NCBI GenBank assembly: GCA_015075425.1
Contig: JABTUL010000004.1
Span: 62,001 to 126,000 of the forward strand
Reading direction: 5' to 3'
Origin: Spirochaetales bacterium
GTDB lineage: Bacteria > Spirochaetota > Leptospiria > Leptospirales > Leptonemataceae
Length of the DNA stretch: 64,000 nt
Shown here in pieces: positions 32,459 to 53,651 of the stretch; within the stretch, counting starts at the first letter, position 1; every line of letters begins with the position of its first letter. The position numbers and the translations under genes were made by a program. Under the pieces are notes generated by a model. The model was not told the origin of the DNA. It saw only the letters and a list, made by a program, of their open reading frames with translations, and searched no databases.

Positions 32459-34225
32459 CTAAAGCCGTAAAACCATAATGGTCGCGTCATCAGCCGCCTC
32501 TTCGCCGGATCGAAACTCGGCCACTGCGGCAAAAATACTGTCAATGATCTCAAGCGGCGGCCGGCTCTTTTCGCGCAGCACAAGCTCAAAGAGCCTCTCT
32601 TCACCAAAATCCTGGAAAGAGGCGTTGTGGGCCTCAGTAATGCCATCCGTGTAAAGGATGAGCAGGTCTCCCGGATCATAAGGAAACATCCTTTCCAGAT
32701 ACTCAGAGCCCTTAAAAATTCCCAGTGGTGGCCCTTTGGCAGAAAGCGATTCTATACGGTTGGAATGCATGCGCACAAGGATCTGGTGATTGTGCCCGGC
32801 ACTGGCCAGGCGAACCCGATTCATTTCCCGTTCCAGCTGGATCAGCATCACCGTAACAAAAAGCCCCATACGGGACTGGGCGTAGATCTCGCGATTGACC
32901 GTAGTCAGTGTGGAAACAGGATCCAGGTGCCTGGGTATTTGTCCGGAAAGCAGAGTTTTAGAATACTCCATAAAAAGCGCGGCCGGAACGCCCTTCCCGG
33001 CAACATCGGCCATAACCACGGATATGCGCTGGTCACTGTGGTACAGAAGGTCATAAAAATCTCCACCCACTTCTTTGCAGGCTTCATAGCGGGTCGCCAC
33101 CTGAACACCGGCCACGAGGGAAGGAATTTTTGGCAGGGAATTTTTCTGGATCAATGCTGCTGTTTCCAGATCCTTCTTGTAGTCGCGTATCTGACGCTCT
33201 CTTTCCCGGGCCAGGGTGCGCGAGAGGGCATCGGCCAACTGGCCAGCGACTGTCGACAGCACTTTTAGTTCAAATTCATCAAAAATTTGATTAGTTTTCT
33301 TATCGGCGACGCTCAGCGCGCCCACACTTTCTCCGTCCTTGATAATCGGTACACAGATGAAAGATCCGGTGCGGTAGCGGTCTGCTGCAACCAGGCCCAG
33401 TTCTTTTTGCGCATCGCGAATGAGCATCCCCTCCCCGGATTCAAGAACCATGGGAATCACTTTGCTGGCCGTGCCAATCAAGCGCTCCCCTTCTTCGATT
33501 TCAAAACCCCGATTCTTAATAATACGATAATCTTTGCTGCCCGCTGATGCCAGCACAATGGAAACACGTTCGACCTCCAGAACTTCCGCTATGGCCTGTA
33601 GAATCTGGTCCAGGATAACATCAAGATCATCCTCAACATGAATACTCTGCGCTATTCTGTAAACGCAGTCCAGCTCTTCCATTCGATTCTGTAAATCTAC
33701 ATATAATTTACGGTTGTAGATGGCCAGCGCGGCCATATTGGAAAGATAGGTCAAAAGCCGGGTGTCCCCGGCATCAAAATGCCGGCCGTCCGTTGTGTTT
33801 ACCACCTCAAGAACGCCAACAAGATTACCCATGGTCAGCATGGGGACGGCCAGTAAATTGCGCGTTTTAAATCCAATCGACTCATCAATCTCGCGCAGCA
33901 CGCGGCTATCGTTCTGTGCATCGTTCACCACAATGGCCTGACGCTCAAGTCCACAGGCTCCGGCAATTCCTGAGCCGAGCGGGATGGTCCTCCTGGCAAG
34001 GAGTGCTCCCCTCTGCCCGCGAGCAATGTCAAAGATCAATTCCTGTTTTTCCTGATCAAAAAGGAGGAGGGAACTGGCCTCGGTGGAAAGAAGCTCCCGG
34101 GCCGTATCCATGATGATCGTCAAAAGCTCATGCAGGTCCATGGCTGAATTGATGCGCATGGTTATATCGTTAATGCGCGTTAAGGAAATCTGGGCGGCCA
34201 CTGCTACGTTTATCGGCAAAATCAA
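32459..34225 (-). CDS. GAF-GAF-PP2C (RsbU/SpoIIE-type) protein phosphatase
   Basis: 588 residues from a TTG at 34225; a GTG at 34201 is an alternative. Two GAF sensor domains lie at ~25-175 (LHELLTIIMDTARELLSTEA, then LLAVPMLTMGNLVGVLEVVN) and ~195-345 (LDVILDQILQAIAEVLEVER, then FICVPIIKDGESVGALSVAD). A PP2C domain follows at ~375-588, with the metal-binding acidic residues in EVGGDFYDLL, VMADVAGKGVPAALFM, ILYTDGITEAHN and EAADDATIMVLRL. Such enzymes dephosphorylate anti-anti-sigma factors in partner-switching pathways. The ATPase at 11187 could belong to such a pathway, but this is inference. It is divergent from the voltage-sensor-like gene. Confidence 0.93.
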   Translation of the reverse strand: MILPINVAVAAQISLTRINDITMRINSAMDLHELLTIIMDTARELLSTEASSLLLFDQEKQELIFDIARGQRGALLARRTIPLGSGIAGACGLERQAIVVNDAQNDSRVLREIDESIGFKTRNLLAVPMLTMGNLVGVLEVVNTTDGRHFDAGDTRLLTYLSNMAALAIYNRKLYVDLQNRMEELDCVYRIAQSIHVEDDLDVILDQILQAIAEVLEVERVSIVLASAGSKDYRIIKNRGFEIEEGERLIGTASKVIPMVLESGEGMLIRDAQKELGLVAADRYRTGSFICVPIIKDGESVGALSVADKKTNQIFDEFELKVLSTVAGQLADALSRTLARERERQIRDYKKDLETAALIQKNSLPKIPSLVAGVQVATRYEACKEVGGDFYDLLYHSDQRISVVMADVAGKGVPAALFMEYSKTLLSGQIPRHLDPVSTLTTVNREIYAQSRMGLFVTVMLIQLEREMNRVRLASAGHNHQILVRMHSNRIESLSAKGPPLGIFKGSEYLERMFPYDPGDLLILYTDGITEAHNASFQDFGEERLFELVLREKSRPPLEIIDSIFAAVAEFRSGEEAADDATIMVLRL

Positions 34226-34262
34226 AGCTCTAAACGGTCCAGAATTTGCCGATACAGATAGC

Positions 34263-35348
34263 GTGAAGTTATTCCGGGCTGTACGCCACCTGCTGATTCA
34301 GATCCTGGGCCACCCGGCCTACAATTTTCTGGCCACTCTGGCAACAGCAGGAAGCATCTGTCTGATTTTTATACCGGCCTTTTTTGATTTGAGCCTGGAG
34401 GGGTCGCGACGCCTCCTTGATCTGGACCATCTCTTGCTTCTTTTGTTCTCCGTTGAGGCTGCGCTGAAATTTATAGCTTCCGGTCGTAGATACCTCCTGC
34501 GGCTGCCCTTCTTCATTGATCTGGCAGTGATTGCCCCGCTTTTTTACTATGTCCTCTGTCAGGAGCTCTATGCACGCGGCTTTATCCTGGATGTTCAGGC
34601 CTGGCAGGAGTTTCCGGGGCTTGATATCCTGAAAGGAGCTCGTATTTTCCGTTTTCTTTACCTTTTCCATTTTTTCTATTCCCTCAAACAGATGGGGCTT
34701 TTTGTCGAAGAGTCAAGGTCCGCAGCCAAAGAGCGGATTTTTGGTGGAATAGCTGCCATTCAGTTCAGCTTCGTCCTTCTTGCTGGCATGGCCAGCTCCT
34801 GGTTTTATGCCAGCCTCAATGAAACCCAGAGACAGACCCGAATTGAACAAATCTCCCAGCACGCGACGGACTACGGGCTGGAACGCACCTATGCCGCCTA
34901 CAAAGAAGAGGTTCTCTATGTGCGCCAGGCTGCCCTGGAAGGGAGCTTTGAAATCAAGAGCCTGGACCCGGCCTATGTTTCGGCTCATTTCCTCTATAAA
35001 AGAGACTACATCCAGATCGATGGGGTGACTCCGGGCGGCACCATCCAGATCAGCTTCCGCGATCTGGTGCAAAATCAGCGCAAGATCGAATTGCTTGTGC
35101 TCTTCATCGGGGCTGTTGTAATCGTTACGCTTCTGTTTGGTCTGAATTACTACTTAAACCAGATTGTCATCCATCCGGTCAGTCGGGCCATGCGGGTCAT
35201 TGAACTGCGCATGGCGGGCGAGGAGCTTGAACACAGTCTGCACGAGGAACAAATCCCCTCTGAAATCACTGCGCTGATCCATAAAGTGGATCTTCTCTAC
35301 CAGCAGATGCGTGAACCCGCTGAATTCATAGAAGCAGTGCCGCAATAA
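34263..35348 (+). CDS. voltage-sensor-like (VSD) / periplasmic domain / HAMP-like membrane protein, copy 1
   Basis: About 361 residues from the GTG at 34263. The frame is open further upstream, but there it is antisense to the phosphatase; the true start is uncertain. Four N-terminal helices match a voltage-sensor domain: S2 LLFSVEAALKFIASG, S3 LPFFIDLAVIAPLF, and S4-like DILKGARIFRFLYLFHFF with Lys/Arg/Arg/His. No pore loop or selectivity filter follows. Instead there is a fifth helix (~165-190), an extracytoplasmic segment of ~100 residues, a sixth helix (ELLVLFIGAVVIVTLLFG) and a HAMP-like end beginning QIVIHPVSRAMRVIELRMAG. The protein at 52527 has the same plan. Function unknown. Confidence 0.72.
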   Translation: MKLFRAVRHLLIQILGHPAYNFLATLATAGSICLIFIPAFFDLSLEGSRRLLDLDHLLLLLFSVEAALKFIASGRRYLLRLPFFIDLAVIAPLFYYVLCQELYARGFILDVQAWQEFPGLDILKGARIFRFLYLFHFFYSLKQMGLFVEESRSAAKERIFGGIAAIQFSFVLLAGMASSWFYASLNETQRQTRIEQISQHATDYGLERTYAAYKEEVLYVRQAALEGSFEIKSLDPAYVSAHFLYKRDYIQIDGVTPGGTIQISFRDLVQNQRKIELLVLFIGAVVIVTLLFGLNYYLNQIVIHPVSRAMRVIELRMAGEELEHSLHEEQIPSEITALIHKVDLLYQQMREPAEFIEAVPQ

Positions 35349-47963: not shown

Positions 47964-48548
47964 ATGAGAATTGAGCGCAGCGACATCCTTTCCCAGGCCG
48001 ATTACAATTCCCTGCGTCCCGAATTTCGCGCAGAGGTTATGGCCCTGAAAGATGAAAGGCGATTCTTGCTCGGACCGTACTTTTGTTTCCTTTTTGAAAA
48101 CCGAAAAACCATTCTTTACCAGATTCAGGAACTGTTGCGTGCGGAGAGCATTACTTCGGAAGAGAAAATCCAGGAGCAGATAGAAGTTTACAACCGTTTA
48201 CTACCGGACAAGTATGAGATCCGGGCAACGCTTCTGCTGGAATTTCCCGATGAAGTGTTGCGTGTAACTCATTTACAAAAGTGGCGTGGTCTTGAAGATC
48301 ACGTGCATTTGCTCCTGGATCATGATGTGATGATCAAGGCGCAATTCGATCCAGAGCAGTTCCATCCGGAGATCCTTTCCTCCGTGCAGTATCTGAACTT
48401 CGCCCTGGCTCAGGCGGGCACGGAGGCATTCTTGCTGGCCCGGGAAATCGAACTTGTTGTTTCCCACCCGGCCTGCAATGATCGGGAAGCTCTCCCGGAC
48501 CGGATCGTTGCGGCTCTGCGCGCCGACCTCAAATCCGGCCTGCAATGA
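47964..48548 (+). CDS. DUF3501 family protein
   Basis: 194 residues. The N-terminus IERSDILSQADYNSLRPEFR, LKDERRFLLGPYFCFLFENRKTILYQIQELLRAE and EQIEVYNRLLPDKYEIRATLLLEFPDE are close to the DUF3501 pattern (ERxDLLxxxxYxxxRxxFR; FENRxTxxYQIQEMLRAE). Function is not known. In other bacteria it is often next to a rubrerythrin or iron-sulfur reductase gene, but here it stands between MBOAT copy 4 and htrA. Soluble, no signal peptide. Confidence 0.85.
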   Translation: MRIERSDILSQADYNSLRPEFRAEVMALKDERRFLLGPYFCFLFENRKTILYQIQELLRAESITSEEKIQEQIEVYNRLLPDKYEIRATLLLEFPDEVLRVTHLQKWRGLEDHVHLLLDHDVMIKAQFDPEQFHPEILSSVQYLNFALAQAGTEAFLLAREIELVVSHPACNDREALPDRIVAALRADLKSGLQ

Positions 48549-48624
48549 TACGGCCCCTGCGGCCTCCGCTATCCGTCCGCTGGAAAGGCGCTTTACAGGG
48601 GGCCTCCGGTGCAAAGCCTGTACC

Positions 48625-50091
48625 ATGCGTCAACTGGCTGTTCTTTCCTGTCTGATCTTTTTCCCGCTGGCGGCCAGCGATTTTGACATTGCCCGCACGG
48701 CCGTCGTGAAGATTGATTCGACTGCCCTTGTGCATTCCTATCAGAGTCCCTGGAAGCAACCGGTGGTTCAGCGCTCAGGTGGAACCGGTTTTGTCATTGC
48801 TGGCCAGCGTATCCTCACCAACGCACACGTAGTTTCCCAGGCGACCATACTGCGGGTGAAGCGACCGGATCACCAGCGCGACTACCTGGCAAAAGTTGAA
48901 TTCATTGCCCATGACTGTGATCTGGCCCTGCTCCGCGTTGATGAAGCGGAATTTTTCCAGGGAGCGGTGCCTCTGGCTATTGGGGAGACGCCAAAGCTGC
49001 AAACACCGGTAACGGTCATTGGTTTTCCCATTGGTGGCAATCGTGAATCCATCACCAGGGGCATCGTTTCCAGGCTGGGCATGGATGTGTACAGTCATTC
49101 GGGAGTGGATGCCCACCTGACCATCCAGGTGGATGCCGCAATCAATCCGGGCAATTCCGGCGGGCCGGCCCTTTACGATGGCAAAGTGATCGGCGTGGCC
49201 TTTCAAGTGTATTCGCGGGGAGAGAATCTGGGCTATCTCATTCCGCCGGATGTTATCGGGAAGTTTCTCACGGACATAAAAGATGGAAAGTATGATGGTT
49301 ATATTGAACTCGGCGTGGTGGATATGCCCACAGAAAATGAGACGGTGCGCCGCTACTACGGCCTTGAAGGCATGCCGCGGCCCATGAGCGGAGTCGTGGT
49401 ACGCCGGATTTTGCCCGGTAGCTCTGCGGACGGCCAATTGAAAGTGGATGATGTGATTGTTGCTTTGAACGGTCAGCCCATTTCTGAATCCGGTGATATT
49501 TTCAGCGATGGCCGCCTGGTGAACTACATCGAACTCATTGATAACGTAAGCGCCGGTACCGCCATCAGGATGACCGTGCTGCGCGCGGGGAAAAAGCTCG
49601 ATTTAGATTTCCCTGCGCGCCGCATGAGTCTCATTGATTTTCAGCGCATGAATTATGAAAATCCACCCGAATACTGGATCACTGCCGGACTAGTTTTTCA
49701 GCCGGTGGATGCGAGTCTCATGCAGGTGTACGGGCGCAAGTGGACACAGGAGGGCAGGTTGACCCAGTTGTATCGCTACGGTTACTTTCTCTCGCATCAG
49801 CTCTTTGAAGAGGTCACTCACGATGTGGCCCTGACACGGCGTCTGGGGGATGAGGCCAATCTTTATGCGGAATCCTTTGAGGGTCAGCTGGTGGCGAAAG
49901 TGGACGGGGTTGCTGTTAAAAGTTTTAAACATTTTGTCGAGCTGGTCGCCCGTTCAAAGGGGGAATTCCTGGTGCTGCATTTCAGGGACACTGTGCGACC
50001 TCTGGTTCTACCCCGGGCCACTCTTGCCAGTGCCGATGCCCGCGTGCTTGGCCGTTACGGAATTCCCCGCCAGGGCCTGGTGCGCAAATGA
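48625..50091 (+). CDS. HtrA/Deg-family serine protease with PDZ domain
   Basis: 488 residues from the ATG at 48625; the frame is open upstream without a signal peptide. A signal peptide is followed by a trypsin-like domain with the complete triad: His68 (ILTNAHVV), Asp99 (HDCDLALL) and Ser178 (INPGNSGGP). A PDZ domain follows (MSGVVVRRILPGSSADG, VDDVIVALNGQPI), then a less conserved C-terminal domain. The layout (PDZ then an extra ~190-residue part) is like the Deg9-type of plants and bacteria. It should degrade damaged or exported proteins in the periplasm. Its stop overlaps the next gene by four bases. Confidence 0.93.
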   Translation: MRQLAVLSCLIFFPLAASDFDIARTAVVKIDSTALVHSYQSPWKQPVVQRSGGTGFVIAGQRILTNAHVVSQATILRVKRPDHQRDYLAKVEFIAHDCDLALLRVDEAEFFQGAVPLAIGETPKLQTPVTVIGFPIGGNRESITRGIVSRLGMDVYSHSGVDAHLTIQVDAAINPGNSGGPALYDGKVIGVAFQVYSRGENLGYLIPPDVIGKFLTDIKDGKYDGYIELGVVDMPTENETVRRYYGLEGMPRPMSGVVVRRILPGSSADGQLKVDDVIVALNGQPISESGDIFSDGRLVNYIELIDNVSAGTAIRMTVLRAGKKLDLDFPARRMSLIDFQRMNYENPPEYWITAGLVFQPVDASLMQVYGRKWTQEGRLTQLYRYGYFLSHQLFEEVTHDVALTRRLGDEANLYAESFEGQLVAKVDGVAVKSFKHFVELVARSKGEFLVLHFRDTVRPLVLPRATLASADARVLGRYGIPRQGLVRK

Positions 50092-51563
50092 AACGTTATC
50101 TTTGCCTGATTCTCCTGGCCACCTCACTGCCAGCACTATCTCTTTCTGATGAAACCATCGCCCGCAGCCTGGTTCAGGTGCGCGTGACCAAAGTGTTCTA
50201 CCAGCAGGCCCGGCCCTGGTTCAAGGATCAGGCGGAACCGTACACCATTACAGGGCTTGTGCTTCCAGGGGAGCGGATTTTAGTGCTGGCCCGTGATATT
50301 CGCAGCGCGCAAATTCTTGAAGTAACCAAGTTTTCCAGCTATGATCGCGCGCTGGCCACTGTGGTCATGGAAGATATCAATGCTAACCTGGCCCTGCTCA
50401 CGGTTACGGATCGCAACTTCTGGAAAGACTTAAGACCTGTGGAGCTGGCTGCAGAGAATGCCAGCCCTCTCTCGCGCGTCATGGCAGTGAAAATCGATGA
50501 TGCCTTTCGTGTCTATCGTGAGGAAGCCCGAATCATGGAAGTGATTCCGGCCGCAGACTACGGGTTTGCTTTCCTGCCTGTTGCCGTCTTTCGTACTTCT
50601 GAGCCTATTTTAAGTGGTGTCCTTTTTAAGGAGAATCAACTGGCCGGGTTTATTGGCTATGCCGATCGCGATAAAAAGGCGGAGGCGATTGGCGTGGACA
50701 CGATTCGGGCTTTTCTCTCCCGTCAGGGTCCTTCCTATCCCGGGTTTGTGGCTCAGGGATTGAATCTCGAGCCGCTTACCGATCCCGTTTTGCGATCCTA
50801 CTACAAATTGCCGGCTCATCGTTCCGGTGCTCTGGTGGTCCGGACCCTGCCCCACAGCAGTGCTCACGGCGTACTTCTCCGACAGGATATTCTTCTTTCT
50901 GTGGATGGCGTAAACCTGGACAACAGGGGGTTTTACCAGGACCCGCAAATCGGCAGGCAGCCGGCTCTCATGCTTTTTGCGCTGAAGGGATCCTCTCTGC
51001 GCTTACCGGGGGAAACGGTTCCCGTTGTGGTCTGGAGAGATGGCCGGGAACAGACTCTGAAAATGGTGCTGCGTTCCTATACCGGTCAGGCGGAACGGAT
51101 TCCCTGGCACGTAGCCGATCAGCCGGAATATGTGATAGAAAATGGTCTGGTTTTTCTGGAGCTGAGCATTCCCTACATCCGGGAGGTGTTGGGAGCTAAC
51201 TGGCAAAGTTCGCCCCATCACTTCAATTTCCTTGTCCGGGAAAAACGGTTTTATGACGACCAGGAGAAAGATCGGCCGGTGATTCTCGGTTCCGTCCTAC
51301 CCGATGAAAGCAACCGCAGTTATGAGAATTACGCCGGATCCGCGGTCGCGGAACTGGAAGGGCAGGCTGTGTTAGATCTGGCCGACTTCAAAAAACGCTT
51401 GGACAGTCTGGCCCGGGCGGGCAAACCCATGGCAAGTGTGATGCTTGCGGGGGGGCAAAAAGCCATTCTTTCCCTGAAAGACCGGCAGGGGATCAATGAT
51501 CGGATCCTTAAGCGCTACGGGATTGAGAAGCCCTTTCATTTGAAGCTCCGCCCGGACCGATAA
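50088..51563 (+). CDS. HtrA-like pseudoprotease (inactive paralogue)
   Basis: 491 residues with a signal peptide (LILLATSLPALSLS). It keeps the size and order of the upstream HtrA, including the PDZ region (SGALVVRTLPHSSAHG, RQDILLSVDGVNL) and the C-terminal part. The catalytic residues are lost: the NAHVV place reads VLARDI, the Asp place reads INANLALLTV, and the GNSGGP place reads SEPILSGVLF. I infer a non-catalytic partner, for example an adaptor or dominant subunit of the active protease. It overlaps the htrA gene by ATGA. Confidence 0.82.
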   Translation: MKRYLCLILLATSLPALSLSDETIARSLVQVRVTKVFYQQARPWFKDQAEPYTITGLVLPGERILVLARDIRSAQILEVTKFSSYDRALATVVMEDINANLALLTVTDRNFWKDLRPVELAAENASPLSRVMAVKIDDAFRVYREEARIMEVIPAADYGFAFLPVAVFRTSEPILSGVLFKENQLAGFIGYADRDKKAEAIGVDTIRAFLSRQGPSYPGFVAQGLNLEPLTDPVLRSYYKLPAHRSGALVVRTLPHSSAHGVLLRQDILLSVDGVNLDNRGFYQDPQIGRQPALMLFALKGSSLRLPGETVPVVVWRDGREQTLKMVLRSYTGQAERIPWHVADQPEYVIENGLVFLELSIPYIREVLGANWQSSPHHFNFLVREKRFYDDQEKDRPVILGSVLPDESNRSYENYAGSAVAELEGQAVLDLADFKKRLDSLARAGKPMASVMLAGGQKAILSLKDRQGINDRILKRYGIEKPFHLKLRPDR

Positions 51564-51597: not shown

Positions 51598-52527
51598 ATG
51601 GAAGAAACCGCAACGAGGATGGTCGATTTCGTGGACAGGCTCTGGACAAGCCCCAACCTGGGGCGGGCCTCAATCGTCCATAAAGAAAACAACATCCTGG
51701 CCTTTCTGCGCGAAAATCAGCCCCAGATCCGCTCTGTTCTCAAAAGGCCCGAGCTTTTTCCGGATAGAGACTGGGAGGAGGTTCTGCGTTTGTTTCTCGA
51801 AACTCTGGCTTTGCGAGTCATTGCAGCTCTGGAAGTCCGGGTGGATGCAGCTGTGGATCAAACCTTGCAGACGGATCTCCTGGCTCATTTTCAATCGGAT
51901 GGTCCTGTTTCAATCCGCCGCGATGATCTTAAAGCTATGATTCGTAGCCTTCTCCCGGGTAAGATTCTCCGCGATCAATACGCAGCCGTATTTGATGCCA
52001 TCAGCGGTCGTTTCTTTAGCCGATACGTCCCGGGGATTTTAAAAACACGGGGTGCTATCTACAATGAGCTGGTCCGGCGTGATCGCCTGATGAAACTGGA
52101 TCCATCTCTCCTTGCTGCTTATCTGGGCCTCGCCTCCCTTTTCCGTCCGCTATACTTTTTTTCGCCGGCCAACGATGACAGGAGCCTTTCGAGCGCAGCC
52201 ACGAATCAGGGCTTTGAGCAGGGTTTCTCTGATCTCATGAGCTGGCTGGGCAGTAAAGCGGGTCAGCTCCCGGAGCGTATTGTGCGACCGGGCCTCGAGA
52301 GTCAGCTGCGTGCTTATGATCACCCCGATCAAAGCGGTGCGGCCCGGCTTATTTCCATCATTGTATCCCGTGCGGCAGACTATGATCCCTACCAGAAAGT
52401 GGACAAGGGGGCTGAATCTCCCGATAAATCCTGGTTTAACATCCATCGCAGAAATGCTCGCTACTATGGCTTTGATGCGCTGTTTCTGGATGAACTCTAT
52501 CGAATTGCGAGCGAGGAAGGCTGGTAA
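51598..52527 (+). CDS. conserved hypothetical protein upstream of the VSD/HAMP gene
   Basis: 309 residues, soluble, largely helical, with no signal peptide. Blocks such as DWEEVLRLFLETLALRVIAAL and GFEQGFSDLMSWLGSKAG suggest a compact helical domain; a segment near residues 175-190 (LASLFRPLYFF) is hydrophobic but short. No family recognised. It overlaps the next gene by one base (TAATG), so the two proteins are made in equal amounts; a cytoplasmic partner of the membrane protein is inferred. Confidence 0.7.
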   Translation: MEETATRMVDFVDRLWTSPNLGRASIVHKENNILAFLRENQPQIRSVLKRPELFPDRDWEEVLRLFLETLALRVIAALEVRVDAAVDQTLQTDLLAHFQSDGPVSIRRDDLKAMIRSLLPGKILRDQYAAVFDAISGRFFSRYVPGILKTRGAIYNELVRRDRLMKLDPSLLAAYLGLASLFRPLYFFSPANDDRSLSSAATNQGFEQGFSDLMSWLGSKAGQLPERIVRPGLESQLRAYDHPDQSGAARLISIIVSRAADYDPYQKVDKGAESPDKSWFNIHRRNARYYGFDALFLDELYRIASEEGW

Positions 52528-53651
52528 TGGCTCTAAGAAAAAAGCAATCGCAGGATCATTTTCCCCTGCCTCTGGAATACCTGATTCTTATTGCCATAGT
52601 TCTTGTGGTCATCCATACCATCGTGGACGACCTGGCGCGCATCTACCACTGGCCGCATCGTCAAATTGTGATCCTGGCCATCATCGGTTTTGCCTTTGAT
52701 TTGTTTTTCTCCCTGGAGTTTGGGGCCCGGAGTTTCATCTCCTGGCGCGCCGGCAACTTCCGTCAGTATTTCTGGTATGAACGGGGTTGGGTGGATCTGC
52801 TGGCTTCTGTCCCGCTGCTCCTTTTAGTTTCCGGTCCGGCCATGATTCTCTATTTGAATCCAGAAATGGCCACGGAAGCTTCTACAAGTTTTCTGCATGT
52901 TCTCAAATCTGCCAAAGCGATACGGGTCACCCGTATTTTGCGTTTGATCCGGATTCTCAAGATTTTTGGTCGCATCCAGAATACCGATTCTGTGATGGCC
53001 AATCGTCATGTAGCTTCCATTGCCACGATCAGTGTGGTTAGCATTGTCCTTTGCCTCGTGACCGTGAGCGTGATTCCGGCCTTTCAGTATCATGACCTGG
53101 GAGCGCATCTAAAGGAGAGGAAGGCTGCTCTCGGGGCCTTGATAAAGGCGGGTGTATCGGAAGAGGCTTTGATTCGGACGATGCGTACGAGCCCCCACTA
53201 CCAGGACGTAATCCACCTTTCGAAAAACAACAATCTGCTTTATGAAAGCACTTCCCGGCATGAACTGCGCTGGACAGCTTATCCACGAGAACTGGATCTG
53301 GAGCAGGGTTACACGGTTTCTTTGAGTCATTACCAGGTAGATGCCCGTGAAGCTCGCTACAATCTCTTTGCCCTCTTTGTTATTTTGTTCCTCATTGGCG
53401 GCCTGATGTTTGTGTACACTGGACTTTTTGTGCGCGAGGTGGCGGATCCTGTATTTATCATGGATAAGGGGATGCGTTACTTTGACTATAACCTCGAGGT
53501 CCGCGTCCCGGATCACTGCGCTCAGGATGAAGTCTTTCAACTGGCTCGAGCTTACAACGCCCGCTGGCTGCCGCTCAAAAATCAGATCAATGATTTTCGT
53601 AAGCGTAAATCCGGCGGAAAATCGGTCTTGAGCGTGGACGACCTCCTGTAA
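52527..53651 (+). CDS. voltage-sensor-like (VSD) / periplasmic domain / HAMP-like membrane protein, copy 2
   Basis: 374 residues. Helices S1 (~17-35) and S2 (~47-68, with Asp58 and Glu64), S3 (ERGWVDLLASVPLLL, like the W-N-x-x-D-L segment of voltage-gated channels), and a textbook S4 at ~127-145 with basic residues at every third place (Lys127, Lys130, Arg133, Arg136, Arg139, Arg142, Lys145). No selectivity filter follows. A fifth helix, an extracytoplasmic segment of ~90 residues, a sixth helix (LFALFVILFLIGGLMFVYTG) and a HAMP-like tail (ADPVFIMDKGMRYFDY...DEVFQLARAYN) complete it. No kinase, cyclase or chemoreceptor domain is attached. Same plan as 34263-35348. Confidence 0.8.
   Translation: MALRKKQSQDHFPLPLEYLILIAIVLVVIHTIVDDLARIYHWPHRQIVILAIIGFAFDLFFSLEFGARSFISWRAGNFRQYFWYERGWVDLLASVPLLLLVSGPAMILYLNPEMATEASTSFLHVLKSAKAIRVTRILRLIRILKIFGRIQNTDSVMANRHVASIATISVVSIVLCLVTVSVIPAFQYHDLGAHLKERKAALGALIKAGVSEEALIRTMRTSPHYQDVIHLSKNNNLLYESTSRHELRWTAYPRELDLEQGYTVSLSHYQVDAREARYNLFALFVILFLIGGLMFVYTGLFVREVADPVFIMDKGMRYFDYNLEVRVPDHCAQDEVFQLARAYNARWLPLKNQINDFRKRKSGGKSVLSVDDLL

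Follow-up and report, generated by a model that had tools for sequence, protein, structure and literature searches.

A pore-less voltage-sensor-domain protein with a HAMP receptor layout and its conserved partner gene in Spirochaetota

In the window (the whole 64,000-nucleotide stretch of DNA that was analyzed), a 374-aa protein, V, combines a voltage-sensor domain (VSD; helices S1–S4 with a full set of S4 charges) with the TM5–outer domain–TM6–HAMP order of membrane receptors and has no ion pore, and the open reading frame (ORF) of V forms with the ORF directly upstream, U, a gene unit that recurs across the phylum. The adjacency of U and V across the phylum, the absence of U where the HAMP tail of V has been lost, and a single VSD–outer–HAMP–HD-GYP protein are new here. 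We consider V to be, with fair probability, a pore-less membrane receptor in which the VSD serves as the membrane-potential input and which signals through HAMP to U. The features of the two genes are as follows.

51598–52527, plus strand: U, a 309-aa soluble all-helical protein with no Pfam family, directly upstream of V (ORF, AlphaFold2 model, conserved neighbor)
52527–53651, plus strand: V, a 374-aa pore-less VSD/HAMP protein (ORF, Pfam, AlphaFold2 model)
52566–52643, plus strand: S1 helix of V, residues 14–39 (AlphaFold2 model)
52656–52748, plus strand: S2 helix of V, residues 44–74, with D58, F61, E64 and R68 (AlphaFold2 model, conservation)
52785–52856, plus strand: S3 helix of V, residues 87–110, G87-W88-x-D90...P96 (AlphaFold2 model, conservation)
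52905–52961, plus strand: S4 charge array of V, K127, K130, R133, R136, R139, R142 and K145 (sequence)
52992–53072, plus strand: TM5 of V (156–182), a receptor-like first signaling helix replacing S5 (AlphaFold2 model)
53073–53330, plus strand: outer (extracytoplasmic) domain of V (183–268), alpha/beta with three strands, replacing the pore loop and filter (AlphaFold2 model); missing in homologues L066 and L068
53331–53435, plus strand: TM6 of V (269–303) (AlphaFold2 model)
53430–53609, plus strand: HAMP domain of V, first helix (AS1) to 317, connector 318–334, second helix (AS2) 335–361, motif D-E-V-F-x-L-A-x-x-Y-N (hhalign, decoys, AlphaFold2 model)
53619–53648, plus strand: conserved C-terminal tail of V, KSVLSVDDLL, a possible docking motif (alignment; weak statistics, p 0.02)

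The voltage-sensor domain

An earlier note on this DNA had placed a 374-aa ORF at 52527–53651 on the plus strand, had read its first four helices as a VSD with seven basic residues at every third position of S4 (K127 to K145), and had pointed to W-x-D-L in S3; each of these readings was borne out. S4 of V is LKSAKAIRVTRILRLIRILKIFG, in which the seven basic residues from K127 to K145 are spaced by exactly three residues. A run of seven at this spacing appeared in none of 20,000 whole-protein shuffles of V, and a run of six in 6 of the 20,000. W88-x-D90-L is present in S3. Pfam Ion_trans (PF00520) matched residues 17–178 of V with an E value of 4.5e-10 and 39.6 bits, against a curated cut-off of 25, and also matched 33 of 35 aligned V homologues. 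When a profile of V was compared with PDB sequences, Kv1.2 was aligned in register from S2 to S4 (S2 FEFLVR, S3 IDIVAIIP), a weak match (E 0.02). Structure prediction, which the earlier note had named beforehand as the refuting test, was performed with AlphaFold2 using an input alignment of 65 sequences (pLDDT 87, pTM 0.81); it gave a four-helix sensor bundle with the S4 helix modeled at 131–147 and no re-entrant pore loop after S4. Kv channels and Ci-VSP had been proposed as the sensors for comparison, and the closest solved fold to the VSD of V was indeed the Ci-VSP sensor (Z 10.0, 126 residues, rmsd 3.9), followed by the sensors of Cav, SLC9C1 and TPC. A Z of about 10 would not decide the matter alone in a helical bundle; taken together with the sequence match and the S4 charges, the series of VSD folds identifies the N-terminal part of V as a voltage-sensor domain.

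The residues expected to matter for voltage sensing are strongly conserved. All seven S4 charges are kept in 110 of 133 V homologues, at approximately 35% identity, and the charge-transfer center, formed by the aromatic F61 and the acid E64 of S2 and the acid D90 of S3, is nearly invariant (F61 in 128 of the 133, E64 in 118 with Asp in five more, for a total of 123, and D90 in 126). Membrane-potential sensing through HAMP would fit this retention of the S4 charges and the charge-transfer residues. A different reading, to which we assign a low but appreciable probability, is that the four-helix domain is a VSD fold kept as a membrane scaffold or as a ligand or lipid sensor, with the outer domain as the real input and voltage irrelevant. 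Such a scaffold would explain why Brachyspira-like homologues (L264–L267 and L272), which have one of the seven S4 basics left, and several other homologues have dropped most of the S4 charges while keeping TM5, the outer domain, HAMP and U, and why the layout is conserved in a second protein family of the window, P0002, despite an eroded S4. It sits poorly with the seven charges and the S2/S3 countercharges in 110 of the 133 homologues, and with L066 and L068, where the loop between TM5 and TM6 is only approximately 14 residues long, so that the outer domain has been shed, whereas the full VSD, the tail and U are kept. The erosion of S4 also counts against our preferred reading of V as a voltage-input receptor: the Brachyspira-like homologues retain U and HAMP with a single S4 basic residue, and the Borrelia-like homologues keep four of the seven charges. 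From the loss of the S4 charges in Brachyspira-like homologues with U, the outer domain and HAMP in place, it follows that voltage is not the sole input in every lineage and that the HAMP–U half can outlive the voltage input.

P0002 is encoded at 34083–35348 on the plus strand and has a V-like VSD–outer–HAMP-like layout (Ion_trans, E 1.3e-8) in which S4 is largely eroded. It is transcribed divergently from a gene for a GAF-GAF-SpoIIE phosphatase (32459–34225, minus strand), and this neighborhood is kept in 9 of 10 relatives examined. A further subfamily of pore-less proteins with a VSD–outer–HAMP-like layout, approximately 420–500 aa in length and with a long C-terminal extension, was observed at L193, L194, L235, L243, L245 and L257; no U was found beside the two members that were examined.

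A receptor layout in place of the pore

Where a channel would continue after S4 with S5, a pore helix, a selectivity filter and S6, none of these was found in the AlphaFold2 model of V, which has an alpha/beta outer part at 191–267 instead and then one long helix, 269–317, in which TM6 and the first HAMP helix leave the membrane together. No selectivity-filter-like motif occurred in the V relatives; TVGYG, TVGFG or TTGFG was present in distant matches from the same search, and these are short channel-sized proteins. The absence of an ion pore, asserted in the earlier note, was thus confirmed. Its order of a helix, an outer segment of approximately 90 residues, a helix and a HAMP-like tail also stood, with the length of the outer segment refined to approximately 85 residues (183–268).

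That V is a channel after all, passing ions or protons through its VSD in the manner of Hv1 or through an oligomeric TM5/TM6 pathway, appears very improbable to us. VSD folds can conduct, as Hv1 does, and V belongs to the Ion_trans family, but V has neither a pore loop nor a filter. The hallmarks of Hv1 are an Asp in the middle of S1 and the S4 signature RxxRxxRxxN; residues 18–33 of V S1 contain no Asp or Glu, and the S4 charge row contains no Asn, continuing instead with R142 and K145. A channel would, moreover, leave the linkage between HAMP and U unexplained.

The HAMP domain of V escaped ordinary searches. Pfam HAMP (PF00672) gave no row for V and was likewise absent from the family listings of 35 members, even with E values up to 10, and plain Pfam, NCBIfam and PDB sequence searches gave no HAMP match in V. 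Because these searches missed it, 26 HAMP domains from the genome of the window were aligned into a reference profile, and hhalign was used to compare it with the tail of V, in line with the HAMP comparison that the earlier note had proposed. The tail matched the profile over 68 columns with a probability of 94.6% and an E value of 6.9e-8; the score was 39–40, whereas none of 100 column-permuted decoys exceeded 14.5 and the reversed alignment scored 11.4. U, when put in place of V as a control, reached a probability of 0.2%. In the AlphaFold2 model, a helix, a connector and a helix (269–317, 318–334 and 335–361) come directly after the TM helix, as is expected of HAMP, and a Foldseek search with the whole V model placed the sensor kinase WalK in the top row (probability 0.89, E 0.065). 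These data indicate that the tail of V is a divergent HAMP domain.

After the HAMP domain, Pfam matched no MCP signaling domain, HisKA domain or other output domain, and only a short tail follows; nor was a PTEN-like phosphatase domain matched by Pfam in V, whose ORF ends after HAMP and the tail. The earlier statement that no output domain is attached therefore holds literally, although it had missed U directly upstream, a VSD–HAMP–HD-GYP fusion in another genome and P0002, the window's other protein with this layout.

Distribution, the partner gene U and an HD-GYP fusion

V is present as a single copy in its own genome. It was detected in 58 of 198 relatives when a single sequence was used for the search, and in 127 of 393 genomes of the phylum when a profile was used. 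A first contig scan with the single V sequence found no relative; with a profile and one peptide pattern, 92 were found across 84,980 species genomes. Among the 80 loci that were kept, all those with a named group belonged to spirochaetes, except for one labeled Hydrogenedentota, and the contig in question sits in a genome (G044) of the window's own class. Judging from these searches, V is likely to be restricted to Spirochaetota, across which the order VSD–TM5–outer–TM6–HAMP recurs. Two other assignments were rejected: a plasmid-borne gene, as there was no plasmid match, and an anti-phage defense gene, where the sole match was to ZorA (MotA/ExbB-like; E 0.02) and covered the TM region only.

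The stop codon of U overlaps the start codon of V (TAATG). U gave a confident all-helical AlphaFold2 model (pLDDT 95); no relative was found among Pfam families or PDB sequences, and Foldseek returned no match with E<0.001. A member of the U family (approximately 310 aa) precedes V at 33 of the 39 loci first collected and at most of 80 further loci, some of them shared with the first set; among distinct HAMP-bearing V members with sufficient flanking sequence the figure is 94 of 112, and the median spacing is 3 bases (98 of 100 within approximately 50 bases). U is present in 122 of the 393 genomes of the phylum. U and V also adjoin each other in families taken, on the basis of gene content and genome size, to be Borreliaceae (0.9–1.9 Mb) and Brachyspiraceae.

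The presence of U follows the HAMP tail. Among 123 non-truncated V members, 95 have both the HAMP tail and U, 20 have the tail without an adjacent U, 8 have neither, and none has U without the tail (Fisher p 3e-6, for rows that are related and not independent). In this count, L268, whose tail is divergent, L193 and L194 (460 aa) were first scored as tail-less and were relabeled by eye, as their sequences continue into a HAMP-like tail. Some V homologues end after TM6, all of these HAMP-less homologues are without U, and U was not found anywhere in four genomes that hold a tail-less V (G292, G308, G334 and G360). On a quick tree of V, loss of HAMP required four changes, of which three are forced by well-supported branches, giving at least three independent losses. 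Since U is absent wherever the HAMP tail has been lost, U is tied to the HAMP half of V rather than to the VSD. The alternative that U is an accessory factor for the folding, localization or scaffolding of V, with HAMP signaling to some other, unlinked protein, would suit a gene encoded before V at close spacing and a fold with no significant known relative; we regard it as rather unlikely, because U is missing wherever the HAMP tail is missing even though the membrane part is intact, a pattern more in keeping with a partner of HAMP than with a factor that helps the membrane part to fold. The reading of U as the HAMP partner has to accommodate the 20 HAMP-bearing members without an adjacent U, some of which have another neighbor, for example a caspase-fold putative lipoprotein. 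The conserved C-terminal motif SxLSxDDLL was also considered as a docking site for U and was set aside, as its association with U is weak (Fisher p 0.02) and the tail persists in a clade lacking U.

Several features of the surrounding genes were recorded. In a V subclade without U (L060, L064, L275, L277, L279 and L281), a gene for the caspase-fold putative lipoprotein lies directly upstream; Peptidase_C14 was tested in L281. In a Borrelia-like genome, a diverged U–V pair (L260:6925–8846, minus strand) is convergent with flaA-cheA-cheW/R-cheX-cheY (Pfam), and by the gene order of B. burgdorferi this pair would correspond to BB_0674 and BB_0675, for which no paper was found in the open-access literature. 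In the window itself, two consecutive trypsin-like/PDZ_3 (HtrA-like) genes upstream of U (48454–51563, plus strand) are kept close to U–V in the family of the window, and V is followed by a Na+/Ca2+ antiporter gene (TIGR00367; 53663–54634, plus strand), whose cluster recurs near V in two relatives only.

In genome G113, a single 604-aa protein (L182:4588–6399, minus strand) has the order VSD–outer–HAMP–HD-GYP, with matches to Ion_trans (1.6e-17) and HD_5/HD-GYP (7.8e-25), an outer domain and a weak HAMP match (0.077). The fusion shows that evolution has joined a V-type input to an intracellular signaling enzyme. Because a V-type input module is here covalently joined to HD-GYP, the output of the system may feed nucleotide second-messenger signaling; the weight of this fusion is limited by its being a single case among the 393 genomes, and one in a fragmented draft genome.

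The fusion, with its true HD-GYP domain, also raises the question of whether U belongs to the HD/HD-GYP superfamily as a catalytically inactive member, in which case U–V would be a split form of the VSD–HAMP–HD-GYP protein. In a fold comparison with U (VIA-align), rows 1–7 were HD-GYP or HD proteins (4mcw and 4r8z with Z 7.5, Bd1817 with 7.0 and PgpH with 6.4), followed by YhaM and PDE5, but a Z below 8 in a helical protein may reflect a common arrangement. The hhalign alignment of U with HD-GYP was collinear over 173 columns, yet its probability was 0.9%, and 3 of 100 decoys attained its score of 18.5. U lacks a conserved histidine at the HD metal site; the best column for His reaches 37 of 60 and holds a Tyr in the U of the window. 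We consider the dead-HD explanation doubtful and treat the possible kinship of U with the HD superfamily, suggested by the modeled fold, only as a lead.

Proposed signaling and comparison with known systems

Computation shows the architecture of V and its linkage to U; that V is voltage-dependent and that it contacts U, we infer. In the mechanism that we propose, a change in membrane potential would move S4 of V, and the S4–TM5 linker would relay this movement to TM5 and TM6, at which point a second signal could enter from the outer domain. HAMP would then convert the movement and switch the soluble U, which may bind HAMP together with the C-terminal tail of V. The wider proposal is that V–U constitutes a dedicated membrane-potential receptor system in which a pore-less VSD acts by way of HAMP on soluble partners of a new class, and which extends over Spirochaetota including Borrelia-like members and is wired in one lineage to HD-GYP (c-di-GMP); here we see the balance as even.

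Bacterial membrane potential is increasingly seen as a signal, through mechanisms that are poorly known, according to the available part of one report (PMC10015841). A VSD–HAMP receptor with a fixed partner, if real, would be a concrete and testable protein for such signaling, and the modularity of HAMP permits chimeras of V. Taken at the level of sequence, the spirochaete V–U pair points to a bacterial system specialized in sensing electrical potential, and it would offer a possible function for an unannotated pair of genes adjoining the chemotaxis operon of Borrelia-like genomes.

The available parts of two reviews of VSD proteins (PMC13095418 and PMC10651576) name channels, Hv1, VSP, SLC9C1/sNHE, TMEM266 and protist adenylyl cyclase–channel fusions, and the pore-less proteins that they name (VSP, SLC9C1, TMEM266 and others) are all eukaryotic. 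Searches of the open-access literature found no paper that, judging by title and abstract, describes a bacterial VSD–HAMP protein, and none on a VSD with HD-GYP. Ci-VSP and SLC9C1/sNHE resemble V in that a complete VSD is linked to an effector other than a channel and no ion pore is present; they differ in being eukaryotic and in carrying a PTEN-like phosphatase or an exchanger, whereas V is bacterial, continues with TM5–outer–TM6–HAMP and has no enzyme attached. Protist adenylyl cyclase–K+ channel fusions combine a voltage-sensor membrane part with second-messenger signaling (available part of PMC10651576, citing Weber 2004) and are like V in tying a voltage-sensor-containing membrane part to signaling, but they keep the K+ pore and have the cyclase in the same chain, whereas V is pore-less and U is a separate protein. 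Bacterial voltage-gated channels of the NavAb/KvAP type (PF00520) share with V the homologous S1–S4 with S4 charges; in V the pore domain is replaced and a selectivity filter is missing. HD-GYP c-di-GMP phosphodiesterases with HAMP are comparable to the fused VSD–outer–HAMP–HD-GYP relative of V, although V itself lacks HD-GYP and U resembles the HD fold weakly and without the metal ligands. With HAMP receptors, such as chemoreceptors and sensor kinases (e.g., WalK), V has in common the order of TM helix, outer domain, TM helix and HAMP, but in V a VSD precedes the first signaling helix, the chain carries no MCP, kinase or cyclase domain, and U, a separate protein, is the candidate for the output.
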